47,801 bases of DNA from Candidatus Latescibacterota bacterium. GTDB taxonomy: Bacteria > Krumholzibacteriota > Krumholzibacteriia > WVZY01. The translations under genes and the position numbers were made by a program. The stretch spans positions 3,599,089 to 3,646,889 of the forward strand of contig CP070677.1 in NCBI GenBank assembly GCA_020352495.1, read 5' to 3'. Positions 191 through 8,593 of this stretch are shown here, piece by piece. Each line of letters starts with the position of its first letter. Position 1 is the stretch's first letter. The notes below the pieces were generated by a model that saw only the letters and a program-made list of their open reading frames with translations, was not told the DNA's origin and made no database searches.

Positions 191-562
191 TTACCGTTCA
201 CAACCCCTTTCCGGGTGATCTGTGAGGGCGTTTCGCAGATACAAACTCAGCGCTTCCGAGGCATCGGTCTCGTTTACGACGAACGCTTCGATTCCCACGG
301 CTCTCAGATCCGCATAGATGCGTCGTCCCATACCGTGTGAGATAACCGCATTGCAATCCTTCAATGCCTGCAAAATGGGACCGTGCCGGTCGACGGCATG
401 ATCCGCGCCGCTCAGTCCTCTTGCGTGCCCCGTGAACGTGTTTTCGACAAATTTCTCGCTCTGTACCTTACCGTCTTCGACGTCGTAGATGATGAACCCG
501 CGCGCCTTTCCGAAATGCGGTGCGATTGTTTTCCCATCATCCGACGCGATAGCGACTCGCAT
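191..562 (-). CDS. NifX/NifB-like metal-cluster-binding protein (distal copy)
   Basis: A 123-residue protein of the dinitrogenase iron-molybdenum cofactor family (NifX / NifB C-terminal / orange-protein fold). It opens with the family signature MRVAIASDDGKTIAPHFGKA and keeps the central 'VISHGMGRRIYADLRAVGIEA' type of glycine-rich strand-turn. Known members bind Fe-Mo or Mo-Cu sulfide clusters; no nitrogenase gene is present here, so a nitrogenase role is not supported. The start is fixed by a strong GGAGGAGGAG ribosome site a few bases before the ATG. It is the last gene of the minus-strand operon that begins with the DUF134 regulator, 56 bases after the DUF5320 gene. The C-terminus (DHPERGCER) carries one Cys. 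The cluster type is unknown. Confidence 0.88.
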   Translation of the reverse strand: MRVAIASDDGKTIAPHFGKARGFIIYDVEDGKVQSEKFVENTFTGHARGLSGADHAVDRHGPILQALKDCNAVISHGMGRRIYADLRAVGIEAFVVNETDASEALSLYLRNALTDHPERGCER

Positions 563-618
563 GGTCTCCTCCTCCGGTCGTTAACCAACATCCTGTTCGA
601 TCGCCCCAACGAAGGATT

Positions 619-1035
619 TTACTCGTCGGCCTTTTTTTCTTGTTGTTTTTTCTCAGCCACCTCGAGACGCTTCAAAAGACCATTGAGTCTCGATCGGAGA
701 CTGCCTATCTCGTTCTTGAGATGAGCAATCTCGGTCTGGCCAATGTCCTCCCGAATGGGATACGGTTCCTCTCCGGGAAGGGTCCTACCCCACCCAAACC
801 CTCTTCCCAGACCTCCTCCGAAACCCGGGCCAAAGCCTCGCCCAAGGCCCCTCCCAAGACTTCTCCCATGGCCTCTCGCAAAGCCGCCGCCGAAACCTCG
901 TCCAAAACCCCATCCCCCCCACCATCCACCACCGCGATACATGGCGCCGGGCGCGTCACCCCCGGCGCAGTAGCCCAAACCGCGTCCTGTCATTGGACCT
1001 CGGGCCTGTGGTCCTGTACGATCTCCTCCTGGCAT
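619..1035 (-). CDS. DUF5320-type glycine/arginine-rich protein with C-terminal coiled coil
   Basis: A 138-residue protein with the DUF5320 head: PGGDRTGPQARGPMTGRG followed by a Cys (residues about 2-23). Residues about 34-85 are low complexity, built of GFGRGFGG/GRGLGRGF repeats. Residues about 97-135 are a heptad-rich coiled coil (IAHLKNEIGSLRSRLNGLLK) ending in a lysine-rich tail. Proteins of this type are recurrent neighbours of NifX-like and MinD/ferredoxin genes in anaerobes; their role is not established. I infer an assembly or scaffold role for the metal-cluster proteins on either side. The start is supported by AAAGGAG seven bases upstream. The repeat makes long open frames on the other strand; these are shadows. 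Confidence 0.8.
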   Translation of the reverse strand: MPGGDRTGPQARGPMTGRGLGYCAGGDAPGAMYRGGGWWGGWGFGRGFGGGFARGHGRSLGRGLGRGFGPGFGGGLGRGFGWGRTLPGEEPYPIREDIGQTEIAHLKNEIGSLRSRLNGLLKRLEVAEKKQQEKKADE

Positions 1036-1058
1036 TGTCTTCTCCTTTCACTCAAGCG

Positions 1059-1400
1059 TCACACGCTCAATTCGTACAACTCCCCGTCTCGGAAACGCTG
1101 ATACACTTCTTCGACGGTAGTCAAATCGTCTCCGGTCATCACTCTCACACCGGCGGCTCTGAGCACAGAACCCGCTTTGGGCCCTACTCTCCCCGTGATG
1201 ACTACGCGTACTCCGGCATTCACGATCGACTGTGCGGCGCTCGTTCCTGCACCATGTGCTACATCCACATTCTCGTGGTTGTCGATGTATGTCGTCTCAT
1301 TGGTATCCGTATCGCAAACAAAAAAGCCCTCGGCCCTTCCGAAGCGATCGTCGACACGCTCTTTCCAACCATCGGCACATGCCGATATTGCGATTCTCAT
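1059..1400 (-). CDS. NifX/NifB-like metal-cluster-binding protein (proximal copy)
   Basis: A 113-residue protein of the dinitrogenase iron-molybdenum cofactor family, paralogous to the gene at 191-562. The signature runs MRIAISACADGWKERVDDRF with GRAEGFFVCD following; later segments VVITGRVGPKAGSVLRAAGV and EEVYQRF match the fold. The ATG at 1398-1400 overlaps the stop of the preceding MinD-type gene as ATGA and has GGGGGAG upstream, so translational coupling is likely. An upstream in-frame extension is open but buried in the neighbour. Known relatives carry Fe-Mo or Mo-Cu-S clusters or act as cluster carriers. Pairing with two MinD/ferredoxin ATPases points to cluster loading by those ATPases (inference). 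Confidence 0.88.
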   Translation of the reverse strand: MRIAISACADGWKERVDDRFGRAEGFFVCDTDTNETTYIDNHENVDVAHGAGTSAAQSIVNAGVRVVITGRVGPKAGSVLRAAGVRVMTGDDLTTVEEVYQRFRDGELYELSV

Positions 1401-2278
1401 GCTGCTCCCCCTATCTTCTGCAGGTGATTCCAAACTTCTTCGACTTTTGTTTTGATCTCTGCATCGTTGGTCTCGACCAGTGTTTTTTCAGCCCGTAAGG
1501 CTTCATAAAACACTCTGTCGTAGGGAATTTGACTGACCACCTCGATCTGACGTTTCTGGCAAAAACGTACGATCTCGCCGCCGACTCCTGGATCGATATC
1601 GAATTTGTTCACAATACAGGACGCGTTTACTTTAAAAAATTCGAGCAGACTGACCAATCGCTCGACATCGTGCAACCCGGATCGCGTAGCCTCCGTGACT
1701 ATCAACACATGGCTGGCACCGGATAATGAGGCAATCGCCGGACATCCAATACCGGGCGGTCCATCGATGATGACATACGGGACCCCTTCTTTCTCCGCGA
1801 GCTGTTTAGCTTCTTGTTTGACCTTGCTCACGAGCTTGCCCGAATTTTCCTGCCCGATACCGAGCTTGGCGTGGACGAACCAACTGCCAAAGCGGCTCTT
1901 CGAGACGTACCAGTGACCGGCGCGGTTGTCGATCATCACAATCGCTTTTTCAGGACACAGATGATGACAAACCGAACAACCCTCGCAATCGACTCCGTTC
2001 ACGACGAGGTGTCCGTCCTGTTCGTGAATCGCGTCAAAACGACACTTTTCTTCGCAGATTCCACATTCCACACATGACTCGTGATCGATGACCGCAGTTT
2101 TGCCGCTCCAAAACTCGTTGGCTTCCCGATTTTCCGGTTCATACAGGAGGTGCAAGTTGGCGGCATCCACGTCGCAGTCCGCCACAACGGCTCCAGTACC
2201 CGCCAGCACTCCCAAGGCCGCTGCAATGGAGGTCTTTCCCGTTCCTCCTTTTCCGCTCATGATGACGATTTCATTCAT
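1397..2278 (-). CDS. MinD-superfamily P-loop ATPase with inserted two-cluster ferredoxin domain (copy 2)
   Basis: A 293-residue ATPase. The deviant Walker A is at the N-terminus (SGKGGTGKTS, residues 8-17). A ferredoxin insert at about residues 65-115 carries two 4Fe-4S motifs (CVECGICEEKC and CEGCSVCHHLCP). The switch segment IIDGPPGIGCP lies at about 170-180. The architecture matches the MinD/Mrp-like ATPases found in pairs beside NifX-like proteins in strict anaerobes, including the two ATPases of the Desulfovibrio orange-protein complex. The proposed role is ATP-dependent assembly or transfer of a metal-sulfur cluster. The start overlaps the end of its paralogue by 8 bases and the stop overlaps the next gene by 4, so the three are almost certainly co-translated. 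Confidence 0.92.
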   Translation of the reverse strand: MNEIVIMSGKGGTGKTSIAAALGVLAGTGAVVADCDVDAANLHLLYEPENREANEFWSGKTAVIDHESCVECGICEEKCRFDAIHEQDGHLVVNGVDCEGCSVCHHLCPEKAIVMIDNRAGHWYVSKSRFGSWFVHAKLGIGQENSGKLVSKVKQEAKQLAEKEGVPYVIIDGPPGIGCPAIASLSGASHVLIVTEATRSGLHDVERLVSLLEFFKVNASCIVNKFDIDPGVGGEIVRFCQKRQIEVVSQIPYDRVFYEALRAEKTLVETNDAEIKTKVEEVWNHLQKIGGAA

Positions 2279-3131
2279 GCGCCGACCCCACGGTTATCTG
2301 CCGAAGCCTCTTGAACGTTCGACCAAACAACTCTTCCAACTCGGGCATCGTTTCCGTTACCAGTTCACCCCTTGCGTATGCGACAGCAATATCGGAGCGC
2401 TCCGGAATCCTAACAATGACATCGATCTCTTGTTCTCGGCAGTAATCCTCCAAAAGGTGATTTTGTTCTGCCGCCTTATTGATAATCACACCAAAGTGCC
2501 GGTCAAGCTGCTTGAGGGTTTGAACCATGAGGTCCAGATCGTGGAGTCCAAACCGCGTCGGTTCGCCCACGAGGATCACATAATCGACGTCTTTGACCAC
2601 CTCGATCACGGGACAGGAAGTACCCGGCGGCGAGTCGTAGAAAGTGACATCGACATTGGTGTCAGCCTCGTCTTTCGTCGCTCGAACCAACGCGGTCGTC
2701 GCGGGTTGACCTATTCTCAATTTGCCGGTGACCAGAGTCATGGAACGGTGTTCCGAAACGGTGATGGTGCCGATATCCTTGAACCCCTCCGTGATGGCCT
2801 CTTCGGGACACATCTCCAGACATCCGTAACAGCTGTGACACAGCTCGGGAAAGACGAGCACATCGGTCGGGAGACTCACGATCGCGTGGAATTCGCACAC
2901 GTCGCTGCATGTGCCACAGTGGAGACACTTCTCCCCGTCAACCACCGGAATCATCGTCTTCACCGTTTCGACGGCCTCATGATCCCGATTGAAAAACAGG
3001 TGACAATTGGGTTCGTCGACATCCAAGTCATACAAAGCCACCCGCACCGCTTTGCTCGCCACGTTTGCCAGGTTCGTGGACACAAAGGTCTTGCCCGTTC
3101 CACCCTTACCACTTGCCACCGCGATCTTCAC
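2271..3131 (-). CDS. MinD-superfamily P-loop ATPase with inserted two-cluster ferredoxin domain (copy 1)
   Basis: A 286-residue paralogue of the next gene. The N-terminal deviant Walker A is ASGKGGTGKTF, followed by a DLDVDEPNCH strand. Two 4Fe-4S motifs lie at about residues 70-115 (CLHCGTCSDVC and CHSCYGCLEMCP). The switch segment is FYDSPPGTSCP. The start codon is GTG (GTG AAG ATC), chosen because TAAGGAGAGG lies a few bases upstream and the Walker strand begins right after it. It sits 12 bases after the DUF134 regulator and overlaps the next ATPase by 8 bases. A heterodimer of the two ATPases is the simplest reading, as for the paired ATPases of orange-protein operons; this is inference. 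Confidence 0.92.
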   Translation of the reverse strand: MKIAVASGKGGTGKTFVSTNLANVASKAVRVALYDLDVDEPNCHLFFNRDHEAVETVKTMIPVVDGEKCLHCGTCSDVCEFHAIVSLPTDVLVFPELCHSCYGCLEMCPEEAITEGFKDIGTITVSEHRSMTLVTGKLRIGQPATTALVRATKDEADTNVDVTFYDSPPGTSCPVIEVVKDVDYVILVGEPTRFGLHDLDLMVQTLKQLDRHFGVIINKAAEQNHLLEDYCREQEIDVIVRIPERSDIAVAYARGELVTETMPELEELFGRTFKRLRQITVGSAHE

Positions 3132-3143
3132 CGTTGCCTCTCC

Positions 3144-3590
3144 TTATCTAATTCGCCCTCTTCTTCCCCGGTGCCTTCCGGAAAAATGCCAAGCAAGGTC
3201 TTCGACATTTGGTGACCCGCAATCCGGGCAGTCCTCTGCGTCCTCGTCGACGGACCGAGGTGAGACCTCGCCACACTCACGGCAATGGTGAAGCGTGTTG
3301 ACGAAATCGATGTTGCCGCCCTCGATGACGAGTTCTTTGCCTTCGATAATCGCCGCCGCCACTTTACCTCTCGCTTTCTCGATCAGACGTGTGAAGGTTG
3401 GTCTTGAGATGTTCATCTTTTCCGATGCCTCGAGATGTTCGAGCTGCTCGTAGTCGGCCAGCCGGATCGCCTCGAATTCATCGACGGTGAGGTCGATTTT
3501 TTCAAGGAACCTCTTGGGGACACCTGCCGGTTTGAAGTGGCCAAATCGCGGCGGAAGCTGGATTCGGCGTTTGCGATACGATCCTCTCAT
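3144..3590 (-). CDS. DUF134 family DNA-binding regulator with zinc-ribbon tail
   Basis: A 148-residue DUF134 protein. Residues about 10-95 are the DUF134 domain with the family signature DEFEAIRLADYEQL and a sigma-70 region-4-like helix-turn-helix (MNISRPTFTRLIEKARGKVA). Residues about 100-130 form a Cys4 zinc ribbon (CREC and CPDC). The tail is Arg-rich. DUF134 proteins are presumed regulators and commonly sit with NifX-like genes. The ATG is preceded by AGGGGG at a good distance. It is the first gene of a six-gene minus-strand operon. A promoter and a long inverted repeat lie directly upstream, so autoregulation is likely, possibly with a metal or redox signal sensed by the Cys ribbon (inference). 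Confidence 0.9.
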   Translation of the reverse strand: MRGSYRKRRIQLPPRFGHFKPAGVPKRFLEKIDLTVDEFEAIRLADYEQLEHLEASEKMNISRPTFTRLIEKARGKVAAAIIEGKELVIEGGNIDFVNTLHHCRECGEVSPRSVDEDAEDCPDCGSPNVEDLAWHFSGRHRGRRGRIR

Positions 3591-3601
3591 CGATACCCCC
3601 T

Positions 3602-3653
3602 AAATGCACATAGGTTCACATCTGATTTGATAATAATGAACATAAGTGCATTT
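3602..3653. repeat. Inverted repeat: candidate operator of the DUF134 operon
   Basis: Two 17-base arms, 3602-3618 (AAATGCACATAGGTTCA) and 3637-3653 (TGAACATAAGTGCATTT), are reverse complements at 15 of 17 positions with an 18-base gap. The upstream arm fills the -35/-10 spacer of the minus-strand promoter. The other arm lies just past the predicted transcription start, so an RNA hairpin is not the likely function because only one arm would be transcribed. Centre-to-centre spacing is 35 bases, a little over three helical turns, which fits two dimers or a bridged tetramer. The likely ligand is the DUF134 protein encoded next to it (inference). Confidence 0.7.
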
Positions 3654-3658
3654 GTCAA
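3630..3658 (-). promoter_or_regulatory. Sigma-70-type promoter of the DUF134/MinD/NifX operon
   Basis: On the minus strand TTGACA (3658-3653) is followed after exactly 17 bases by TATTAT (3635-3630), a 6/6 and 5/6 match to consensus. The predicted start of transcription is near 3623, giving a leader of about 33 bases to the DUF134 ATG. The candidate operator overlaps it. Confidence 0.72.
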
Positions 3659-3966
3659 GGCAAATCAGCCCCCAGTCGCCTGACATATGTTTAATATTTT
3701 TAGTATGTTATTTCCGGACAGACAAACGGTTCAGCATTCGCGGCTATGCTGGTACCTTTGAGATTGGTAAACGGCGCCGGCTCGAGGGTTTGAGAAGAAG
3801 TGGAGGTCGAATCGGCGGCGTCGGCATATCGGGGATCGAATCCGTGTTTTGGCGTGGTTTCGGGTTACAATGACAACGCGGACTGTTCTTGTCCCGACGA
3901 GCCCTGGATTCGCGCGAAGCCTGCGGTGCGGGAATTCACTATCAAAACTTCCGATGGCGAGCTTAG
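3659..3966. other. Intergenic region upstream of the MFS gene
   Basis: This is the stretch between the divergent DUF134 operon and the MFS transporter. It is AT-rich near 3680-3720 and GC-rich after that. I found no convincing coding frame and no well-spaced plus-strand promoter. Confidence 0.5.
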
Positions 3967-5151
3967 GTGCATAAAAAGAAACCACAGCCCAACACGTACC
4001 AACGATTCCATACCAACCGCGTGATCACCATCTCAGCAGGACACGCACTGCACGACACCTATACGACTTTTCTGCCGCCACTCTTGCCAGCCTTTATCGA
4101 GCGTTACCTGCTGTCCAAGACCGAGGCCGGTCTTCTTTCGGTATTCCTCCAGGTGCCGTCGCTTTTCCAACCTTTCATCGGCCTTCTGGCTGACCGGGTC
4201 AATCTCCGTTATATCGTCATCCTGGGGCCGGCGGTATCAGCAACCGCGATGAGCTTACTGGGCGTGGCTCCTGGTTACGCGATGCTCGCGCTGCTCTTGT
4301 TGACCGCCGGCATTAGCTCCGCGGGTTTCCATGCCGTCGCACCGGTTATGACGGGAACGCTCTCGGGACGGAGTCTCGGGAGGGGAATGGGGTTCTGGAT
4401 GCTGGGCGGCGAGCTCGGTCGTACGCTGGGTCCGATCGTGGTGGTCAGCGCCGTGGGGATTCTCACTCTGCGCGGCCTTCCGTGGCTGATCATAGTCGGT
4501 TTGGCCGCTTCGGTGGTTTTCTATTTCCGTCTGAGAGATGCGCCGGTGAGACCGGTCGGTATCGGACCGGGACTGCCTTGGAGACCGGCGCTTCGCAGAA
4601 TGAAACCCATTATGATGCCGCTAAGCGGTGTGATCGCCGTTAGGGCACTCATGTTGTCGGCGCTCATCACGTACCTTCCCACTTTTCTCACCGAAGAGGG
4701 CTCGGGCTTTTGGCTGGCGGGCGCCTCGCTCTCACTGTACGAAGCAGCGGGCGTGGCAGGTGCACTGTGTGGTGGATGGATCAGTGATCGACTGGGGCGA
4801 AGAGTCGTTTTGCTGGTCTCCATGCTTACCGCGCCATTTGTCATGTTGATATTTGTCGTAGTCGAAGGGTGGGTTCGATATCTTATTTTGCCGGCGCTTG
4901 GTTTCACGGCGTTGTCGATCGCTCCCGTGATCACGGCGCTGGTGCAGGAAAGCTTTCCCGAGAACCGCGCGTTAGCAAACGGCATCTATATGTCACTCAG
5001 TTTTGGCCTGCGGTCGGTGGCGGTGGTTGTTGTGGGAGCTTGCGGGGATTTCTTTGGGTTGTCCATCGCGTTTGTGACCAGCGCGGGTTTGATGCTGCTT
5101 GGGATCCCGCTCGTTTTCCGGTTGCCGAGCGACAAAGCGAGGCGCCGATAA
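3967..5151 (+). CDS. MFS transporter, fosmidomycin-resistance (Fsr)-like
   Basis: A 394-residue inner-membrane protein with about 12 hydrophobic segments. The N-terminal TM1 is typical of Fsr-like MFS exporters (ISAGHALHDTYTTFLPPLLP), followed by the loop-2 motif GLLADRVN and the matching second-half loop GGWISDRLGRR. The family exports small molecules by proton antiport; the substrate here is unknown. The start is GTG at 3967; an internal GTG at 4021, just before the TM1 sequence, is an alternative and would shorten the protein by 18 residues. No clear ribosome site decides between them. It stands alone, divergent from the metal-cluster operon and convergent with the M16 gene, with a shared terminator downstream. 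Confidence 0.88.
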   Translation: MHKKKPQPNTYQRFHTNRVITISAGHALHDTYTTFLPPLLPAFIERYLLSKTEAGLLSVFLQVPSLFQPFIGLLADRVNLRYIVILGPAVSATAMSLLGVAPGYAMLALLLLTAGISSAGFHAVAPVMTGTLSGRSLGRGMGFWMLGGELGRTLGPIVVVSAVGILTLRGLPWLIIVGLAASVVFYFRLRDAPVRPVGIGPGLPWRPALRRMKPIMMPLSGVIAVRALMLSALITYLPTFLTEEGSGFWLAGASLSLYEAAGVAGALCGGWISDRLGRRVVLLVSMLTAPFVMLIFVVVEGWVRYLILPALGFTALSIAPVITALVQESFPENRALANGIYMSLSFGLRSVAVVVVGACGDFFGLSIAFVTSAGLMLLGIPLVFRLPSDKARRR

Positions 5152-6799: not shown

Positions 6800-8593
6800 T
6801 TACTGTTCCTCGGCCTTTTTGAGTGCCTCGAGACGTTTGTTGGCGATCTCCAACAGTTTTTCCATTCGTGCTTTCCGTTCGGGGTCATCGACCTGATCCA
6901 GCCGCGAGGCGAACATGCCGATCATCTGCTCCAATCGGGCGGCGTCGTCTATCGACTCTATCATCTGCACCGCTTGTGCAAACCGCGGGTCTTCACCGCC
7001 TTCGCCTTCGCCCTCCGCTCCGGCCTTTGTGTTGACAATCATCACGTTCTTTTGGTCTTTCGCAAAATACGTGTTGGCCACGCGCTGAACATCTTTGGCC
7101 GTTACCTTATCGCACATCTCGGGGTTGTTGTTCGCCTCGGTCCAGTCACCCAATGCGGCGTTTTGACCAAGGTAAAACAGGATGCCGATTCCCGACATGA
7201 TGTCCATGAACCGGATCTTTTGCACACGCAGTTGATTTTTTACCTTTTGAAGTTCCTCTTCGGACACCGGATCGGTCTTCAAGTCCTCGATGACTTCGAT
7301 CATTGCCTCTTCCAGTTGTTCGGCCTTCACACCGGAGACCCCGTCGGCCGTGATCTGAAACGCGCCCGCGTACTCCTTCGAATCCTGGTTGGCACCGACC
7401 GCCAGATCGCCACCACCAAACATGCGCATTCGCCCACCACCCGCGGAACTCTTGGCGATACCCTTCTCCTCGACCAGTTTCTTGTACAACCGTCCCGTCT
7501 TGCCGCTCATGATCCCGGCAAGGACCTCCAGCGGATAGCTGTCGGTGTGCTTCCAAGCGACCGTGTGGTACCATATCTCGGCCTTTGGATTGGTCTCCGC
7601 TTCGGCGACCAATCGTTTTTCTCCGTACTGTTTTTCTTCGAGGGTCACCACGTCCGGTGGATCTATTTCGCCACGGGGAATACGCTCAAAGTACTTCTTG
7701 ATCAGCTTGATCATCTTGTCGGGTTCGAGGTCCCCGACCAAGATCATCGTCAGATTGTTGGGAGCGTAGTAGGTATCATAATACGCGTTGGCCTGTTCAC
7801 GCGTAATGCTGCCCAGATCTGAAGGCCAGCCGATGACATCCCAATGGTACGACGATGATTTCCAGAACATCGCCCGGAAGTCCTCTTCGATCAGCCCGGT
7901 CGGTGTTGAATCCACACCACGCCGACGTTCCTCACGCACGACATCGCGCTCGGAGTAGAATTCCCGGAATATCGGTTTCTTGAACCGGTCGGATTCGAGC
8001 CACATAAACAGCTCTATTTTGTTTTTGGGAAGACGGATAAAATACCCGGTCATATCATCCGACGTAAAGGCATTGAGGAAAAATCCGCCATGCTTGGTGT
8101 AGAGCTCATCGAGATGATCTTTTATGATCAGCTCGCGTTGTTCGAGGATCAAGGCGTCAAACTCCGCGTCGAGCTCCCGGTACCGCGGGGTTTTGGCCTC
8201 GGGATCCAGCATGTCGCTGATTTCCCCTCGGCGAAGTTTTTCGCGCATGACCCGCTCCTCGGCCCGCATCAACACCCTGAGCGAGTCGAGCTGCGCCATG
8301 ATCTCGCGATCGCGTTTTATGTCCTTGGTTCCGATTGTTTCGGTCCCCTTGAACATCATATGTTCAAAAAGATGGGAAATGCCCGTAATACCTGTCGTTT
8401 CGTTTGACGAACCGACCCGGGCAAAAATCGCGGCCATGATGGTCGGGGCTTCGTGCCGTTCGACCATCAAAATCTGCATGCCGTTGTCGAGCCAGTACTC
8501 GCTGGCATCGATGTTTTGTGCGGCCACTGGAAACGCGGTGGCAAACAGCATCACCGCACAAGCGAAGACCGCACACGTGCTGCGTTTGTTCAT
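6800..8593 (-). CDS. M16 family zinc metallopeptidase, active subunit
   Basis: A 597-residue secreted M16 peptidase. The signal peptide covers about residues 1-25 (cleavage near PVAAQ). The inverted zinc motif is H74-LFE-H78, with the third-ligand region VVREERRRG further on. An unusual charged, probably helical insertion of about 90 residues (about 88-175) follows the zinc motif before the typical 'FMWLESDR' segment. The N- and C-terminal M16 domains are both present, with a charged helical tail. It probably acts in the periplasm or at the cell surface on peptides or unfolded proteins. Its inactive partner follows after 24 bases. It is part of a minus-strand run that begins with an ABC exporter. 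Confidence 0.93.
   Translation of the reverse strand: MNKRSTCAVFACAVMLFATAFPVAAQNIDASEYWLDNGMQILMVERHEAPTIMAAIFARVGSSNETTGITGISHLFEHMMFKGTETIGTKDIKRDREIMAQLDSLRVLMRAEERVMREKLRRGEISDMLDPEAKTPRYRELDAEFDALILEQRELIIKDHLDELYTKHGGFFLNAFTSDDMTGYFIRLPKNKIELFMWLESDRFKKPIFREFYSERDVVREERRRGVDSTPTGLIEEDFRAMFWKSSSYHWDVIGWPSDLGSITREQANAYYDTYYAPNNLTMILVGDLEPDKMIKLIKKYFERIPRGEIDPPDVVTLEEKQYGEKRLVAEAETNPKAEIWYHTVAWKHTDSYPLEVLAGIMSGKTGRLYKKLVEEKGIAKSSAGGGRMRMFGGGDLAVGANQDSKEYAGAFQITADGVSGVKAEQLEEAMIEVIEDLKTDPVSEEELQKVKNQLRVQKIRFMDIMSGIGILFYLGQNAALGDWTEANNNPEMCDKVTAKDVQRVANTYFAKDQKNVMIVNTKAGAEGEGEGGEDPRFAQAVQMIESIDDAARLEQMIGMFASRLDQVDDPERKARMEKLLEIANKRLEALKKAEEQ

Follow-up and report, generated by a model that had tools for sequence, protein, structure and literature searches.

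The 47.8-kb stretch of DNA from Candidatus Latescibacterota bacterium analysed here (the window; coordinates are numbered from its first letter) carries six minus-strand genes predicted to encode a DUF134 protein, two MinD-type ATPases (ATP1 and ATP2), two proteins of the NifX fold (NifXa, a homologue of the orange protein, ORP, and NifXb) and a DUF5320 protein (Table 1). They are present as a single copy in the 4.31-Mb genome. The families which an earlier note on this DNA had assigned to the six open reading frames hold in Pfam profile searches, in which the DUF134 protein clearly exceeds the gathering score of 27 and the two Nitro_FeMo-Co proteins match PF02579 with E-values of 6e-22 and 1e-20; the ATPases come out as ParA/MinD-type. 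Its overlaps of 8 bases between ATP1 and ATP2 (2271-2278) and of 4 bases between ATP2 and NifXa (1397-1400) are exact, the sigma-70-like promoter was recovered at 3658-3630, and the description as an operon without nitrogenase agrees with a profile search of the 4.31-Mb genome, which detected no nitrogenase component (PF00148). The six genes are a genuine operon and encode a compact iron-sulfur or metal-cluster machine that occurs in many anaerobic bacteria. Two features had been overlooked, namely a 17-nt inverted repeat over the promoter and a C-terminal CxxC...CxxC ribbon in the DUF134 protein.

Table 1. Coordinates of the operon genes, the promoter and the two operators in the window.
Feature	Position	Strand	Remarks
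NifXb, second NifX-fold protein	191..562	-	PF02579 73.9 bits
DUF5320 protein	619..1035	-	PF17253 69.5 bits, E 6e-19; Gly-rich, C-terminal coiled-coil-like stretch
NifXa, ORP homologue	1059..1400	-	NifX fold (PF02579); 2wfb E 9.8e-23, 48/107 identical
ATP2, MinD-type ATPase	1397..2278	-	two [4Fe-4S] motifs (4Fe-4S dicluster domains); switch-II Cys179
ATP1, MinD-type ATPase	2271..3131	-	two [4Fe-4S] motifs (4Fe-4S dicluster domains); switch-II Cys173
DUF134 protein, 148 aa	3144..3590	-	PF02001 92.9 bits, E 2e-26; sigma-region-4-like helix-turn-helix (HTH) and C-terminal CxxC...CxxC ribbon; proposed autorepressor
Operator O2, core GTGAACCTATGTGCAT (minus strand)	3602..3621		lies 32 bp past O1; 14.0 bits, ranked second in the window
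Sigma-70-type promoter TTGACA-N17-TATTAT	3630..3658	-	11/12 consensus positions matched
Operator O1, core ATGCACTTATGTTCAT (minus strand)	3634..3653		in the -35/-10 spacer; 26.0 bits, best in 47.8 kb

The inverted repeat (3602-3618/3637-3653) overlaps the promoter, and each of its arms represents one operator: O1 lies within the -35/-10 spacer and O2 directly past the -10 box. When the window was left out of the training set, the resulting profile still ranked the two as the best sites of the whole stretch, the best of 20 shuffles reaching 11.9 bits. Paired sites are also found in close relatives, at a distance of +34 or +35, and in others at +24, +26 or -32. When two sites separated by exactly 14 nt were demanded, no match came out, as the real gap is 18 nt. 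Where the divergent MFS gene begins, a candidate third operator (3955-3974, 6.0 bits) falls inside the shuffle range and is not claimed, and a further motif match (8350-8369, 8.6 bits) was set aside due to its location inside a coding region.

The underlying consensus, the 16-bp palindrome ATGNNCATATGNNCAT with 12 fixed positions, was first spotted in the upstream regions of DUF134 genes of the same phylum and then scored on loci chosen by DUF134 similarity, a match being defined as at least 10 of the 12 positions within 150 bp upstream of the DUF134 gene. The phylum sample comprised 80 genomes, 39 of which contained a DUF134 match, and the cross-phylum sample comprised 80 loci from GTDB genomes picked by DUF134 protein similarity only. 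The samples overlap, since at least one cross-phylum locus (L073) is also in the phylum set; locus L010 (genome G062) is identical to L073 over 3,282 bp. The palindrome was detected upstream of DUF134 in 66 of 79 cross-phylum loci, compared to 1.6% of dinucleotide-shuffled upstream regions, and in 27 of 28 phylum loci, compared to 0.5%. Across loci the operator core sits between the -35 and -10 boxes, with the -35 box starting 7-8 nt ahead of it in 28 of the 40 promoters that could be scored. Many Bacteroidota loci, which use the TTG and TAnnTTTG boxes of their lineage, carry the operator between TTG and a TAnnTTTG-like box, so that its place is kept despite the different promoter type. Furthermore, the operator halves co-vary symmetrically at positions 3/12 (p 1e-5) and 4/11 (p 0.002), and in four relatives in which DUF134 and NifXa-ATP1-ATP2 are divergently arranged a single operator in between is common to both. 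In the literature searched, no description of an operator for DUF134 came up.

The AlphaFold model of the window's DUF134 protein (predicted local distance difference test score, pLDDT, 90) places residue 64 at the start of the recognition helix. The bases of the operator vary in association with this helix: half-sites of proteins with SRPTF are AAC in 39 cases and CAC in 4, whereas those of proteins with SRSTF are AAC in 23 and CAC in 72 (Fisher 7e-14 by plain counting). The CxxC...CxxC ribbon is found in 79 of the 80 cross-phylum relatives. The HTH superposes on that of Bacillus subtilis DeoR (7bhy) with a root-mean-square deviation (rmsd) of 0.7 over 40 residues and 38% identity. A whole-fold search in the PDB gave no significant match beyond the HTH, and matches to MCM and HypA were discarded (rmsd ~10 A). 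In comparison to the SorC/DeoR repressors with their similar HTH, DUF134 lacks the sugar-phosphate effector domain, and the small cysteine ribbon would take the part of the effector module. The protein belongs to the Pfam family DUF134/UPF0251 and has the same sigma-region-4-like HTH, to which this branch adds the C-terminal ribbon and the proposed conserved operator.

The gene set, which the earlier note had presented as unusual, turned out instead to be a widespread arrangement among anaerobes. The co-occurrence check proposed there was carried out, and DUF134, the MinD/ferredoxin ATPases and the NifX proteins, often together with DUF5320, adjoin each other in more than 10 phyla. The cross-phylum loci stem from Calditrichota, Neomarinimicrobiota, Cloacimonadota, Bacteroidota, Ignavibacteria/Chlorobiota, Spirochaetota, Krumholzibacteriota, Kiritimatiellota, Campylobacterota, Aminicenantes, Acidobacteria and others. 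Among the 48 of them with at least 4.8 kb downstream, ATPases occur on the same strand within 5 kb in 38, NifX proteins in 37 and DUF5320, rightly counted as part of the set before, in 28. The same partners are located near many of the DUF134 loci fetched from the phylum. Across phyla the order DUF134-(DUF5320)-ATP1-ATP2-NifXa recurs. The neighbourhood is of an already known anaerobic kind, and what is added here is a specific operator and a proposed role for DUF134. A third class of NifX proteins was detected in 15 of 80 DUF134 loci.

Some loci show further variants. A small undescribed protein of ~75 aa with a Gly-rich N-terminus and a zinc ribbon, which reaches no Pfam cut-off, is encoded in 40 of 80 DUF134 loci (for example in L111, 849 bp after the DUF134 start). 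Locus L021 (1-564, minus strand) encodes a DUF134 protein with a DUF5320-like C-terminal stretch (MPNNDRTGPQGQGPRSGRGQGRC), a possible fusion to be taken as a lead only since its Pfam score of 23.4 bits lies below the gathering score of 27.

Each of the two ATPases keeps eight ferredoxin cysteines, and a further cysteine is found seven residues past the switch-II aspartate (DxPPGTSC in ATP1, 91%; DGxPGxGC in ATP2, 100%). The cluster ligand Cys132 of NifH presumably lies at or beside the equivalent place (D125+7). NifXa shares 45% identity with the ORP of Desulfovibrio gigas. In Desulfovibrio, MrpORP hands Fe-S clusters to Orp3 and Orp4, two ATPases with two [4Fe-4S] motifs each, and Orp8 belongs to the family with the Mo-Cu-S cluster (PMC6345978). 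The window's operon shares with this complex (orp1/orp2 operons; Orp3, Orp4, Orp5, Orp8, Orp9/MrpORP) the ORP-type NifX protein and the two paralogous MinD-type ATPases. However, the Desulfovibrio genes form two divergent operons dependent on sigma-54, DVU2106 and IHF, whereas here one operon with DUF134 and a sigma-70-type promoter is present, which includes DUF5320 and a second NifX protein. The Desulfovibrio complex also comprises the Mrp-ORP fusion (Orp9) and the 2Fe-2S protein Orp5. No protein of the genome passes NF041136 for the MrpORP fusion; a stand-alone Mrp encoded elsewhere scores 308.8 bits but covers model positions 4-251 only. No sigma-54 -24/-12-like site was found between 3591 and 3985, with up to 3 mismatches allowed. 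Because neither the fusion nor the sigma-54 site was found, the locus was not filed as a Desulfovibrio-type orp locus, although it probably works like the ORP complex. The Desulfovibrio plan put forward in the earlier note is supported by NifXa and the ATPase pair but is incomplete, the Desulfovibrio complex having the fusion protein as well; overall the note's observation is confirmed and its interpretation partly supported.

The NifX fold (PF02579) is also that of NifX, NafY, the C-terminal domain of NifB and IssA, but the window's proteins stay below the nif cut-offs in a genome without nitrogenase: against nitrogenase NifX (TIGR02663) NifXb scores 43 bits with a cut-off of 112, and NifXa gives no match. 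The likeliest task of the complex would be to load or pass on, at the expense of ATP, a metal-sulfide or Fe-S cluster for which NifXa is the acceptor or the donor.

Outside the operon the motif occurs at background level in the window's genome (27 matches versus 25 in the control), so no further targets are claimed there. Exact motif matching alone was dismissed: 11 of 78 phylum genomes matched, several of the hits lying elsewhere than at DUF134 genes, and due to this lack of specificity a looser position-aware test was used. In 18 genomes there are 21 distinct exact sites, 15 of which belong to DUF134 promoters, and the control gave just one match overall. One of the 15 (G085:C51, L183) marks a DUF134-NifXa-DUF5320 operon absent from the seed set. 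In a spirochaete (genome G083, locus L188, C5:86000-97000) an extra exact operator with a clear promoter was found at 3195, followed by genes for a Gly-rich zinc-ribbon protein, a NifX protein, YedF, a cysteine desulfurase-family protein, a 74-aa protein and SelD. Since the Gly-rich zinc-ribbon and NifX families are usual members of the DUF134 operon, the site appears to be a genuine second target, although in a single genome. It may link the ORP-type system with selenium or sulfur delivery.

Starting from the gene set, the operator and its position, the association with the recognition helix and the absence of nitrogenase, which are established from the sequence, we favour with a probability of about 0.68 an autoregulated operon for an ORP-like metal-sulfide or iron-sulfur cluster-handling complex of anaerobes, with DUF134 as a zinc-ribbon autorepressor. 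DUF134, already named as the likely regulator in the earlier note, which had left the mechanism open, would bind the ATGNNCATATGNNCAT palindromes as a dimer and, given their location in the promoter spacer, would block RNA polymerase and thereby repress its own operon. The spacing of the two sites in this genome, which corresponds to three helical turns, would permit cooperative binding. The four-cysteine ribbon may read metal, sulfide or the redox state, so that DNA would be released when the complex is needed. The ATPases, with two [4Fe-4S] clusters each and the conserved switch-II cysteine, would then spend ATP to load or move a cluster carried by the NifX-fold proteins, above all NifXa, and DUF5320 may serve as a scaffold or partner.

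Several points weigh against this explanation. The palindrome stays below 10/12 in 13 of 79 cross-phylum loci, and O2 is a weak site. The link between helix and operator is not significant with relatedness allowed for (four supported independent pairs, with ~3.3 in the expected direction and none opposed), and the window itself is mixed, its SRPTF protein facing operators that each combine an AAC with a CAC half-site. Partner genes are lacking in 9 of 48 long DUF134 loci, and DUF5320 or NifXb is missing from many. As the Mo-Cu cluster of ORP (S2MoS2CuS2MoS2) is bound noncovalently, the metal of the NifX proteins cannot be named from their sequence. Finally, the position of the operator seems to favour repression while being compatible with activation as well.

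DUF134 might act as an activator on the same palindromes, remodelling or recruiting RNA polymerase from the promoter spacer in the manner of MerR. The operator does lie between the boxes, where MerR-type activators bind too, and the resemblance of the HTH to sigma region 4 would allow a contact with the polymerase. However, MerR-type promoters have long spacers of 19-20 bp, whereas the commonest spacer here is 17 bp (25 of 40 scorable promoters, in a scan that mildly favours 17). An activator also seems unneeded because the boxes of the window's promoter match the consensus so closely, and O2 occupies a repressor position downstream of the -10 box, so that we consider activation unlikely.

Other explanations concern the purpose of the complex rather than its control. 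The NifX-type proteins could, together with the ATPases and the cysteine-rich regulator, handle a labile selenium or persulfide species instead of a Mo/Cu/Fe cluster, as may be indicated by the genes behind the spirochaete operator and by two SelD genes in the window's genome. This link depends on a single spirochaete, no yedF above the cut-off is present in the window's genome, SelD appears in one other of the 80 loci and there on the opposite strand, and ORP, to which NifXa is closely related, carries a Mo-Cu-S cluster; delivery of selenium or sulfur is thus quite improbable. Positioning of the division site or the cell pole, with the clusters merely as sensors or structural elements, would suit the MinD type of the ATPases. 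The orp genes of Desulfovibrio have been proposed to position the septum (PMC3897727), and MrpORP localises to the cell pole (PMC6345978). However, the ATPases score far under the MinD cut-offs (54.9 versus 212.9 bits) and conserve the metal-binding cysteines, and the NifX proteins together with the cysteine-ribbon regulator indicate metal or cluster handling, which makes such a role very improbable.

Returning to DUF134 as an autorepressor, a broader proposal would be that the zinc-ribbon proteins form a repressor family that spans phyla, has not been described before and follows a readable operator code, which controls the ORP-type metal-sulfide machinery of anaerobes as well as sulfur and selenium delivery genes (YedF, cysteine desulfurase, SelD) and whose ribbon senses the supply of clusters or of sulfur and selenium. 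We put this forward tentatively and regard it as rather doubtful. No settled job has been assigned to the metal-sulfide protein ORP, nor a function to the widespread DUF134 family; an operator shared across phyla ties the two together and makes the role of DUF134 cheaply testable. With it, the regulon of any anaerobe could be listed, and scanning has already yielded an operon outside the seed set and one selD operon, which could hint at the purpose of the ORP machinery.

One of the two SelD genes in the window's genome (G000:C1:57158-58081) contains a TGA in frame and is immediately preceded by a YedF/TusA-like gene; its product possibly contains selenocysteine.

The nearest relatives of the operon found are those of Calditrichota (L055, L057; DUF134 68%, NifXb 60% and ATP2 62%, compared to ~50% or less within its own phylum), and a DUF134 match is lacking in 3 of 4 same-family genomes outside the genus, which together suggests horizontal transfer of the operon. 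Outside the window, ~1.2 kb past the end of the operon (L002, 6345-8998, minus strand), genes resembling those for a multihaem cytochrome and an outer-membrane beta-barrel protein were read from the sequence, which suggests a capacity for extracellular electron transfer in this bacterium.

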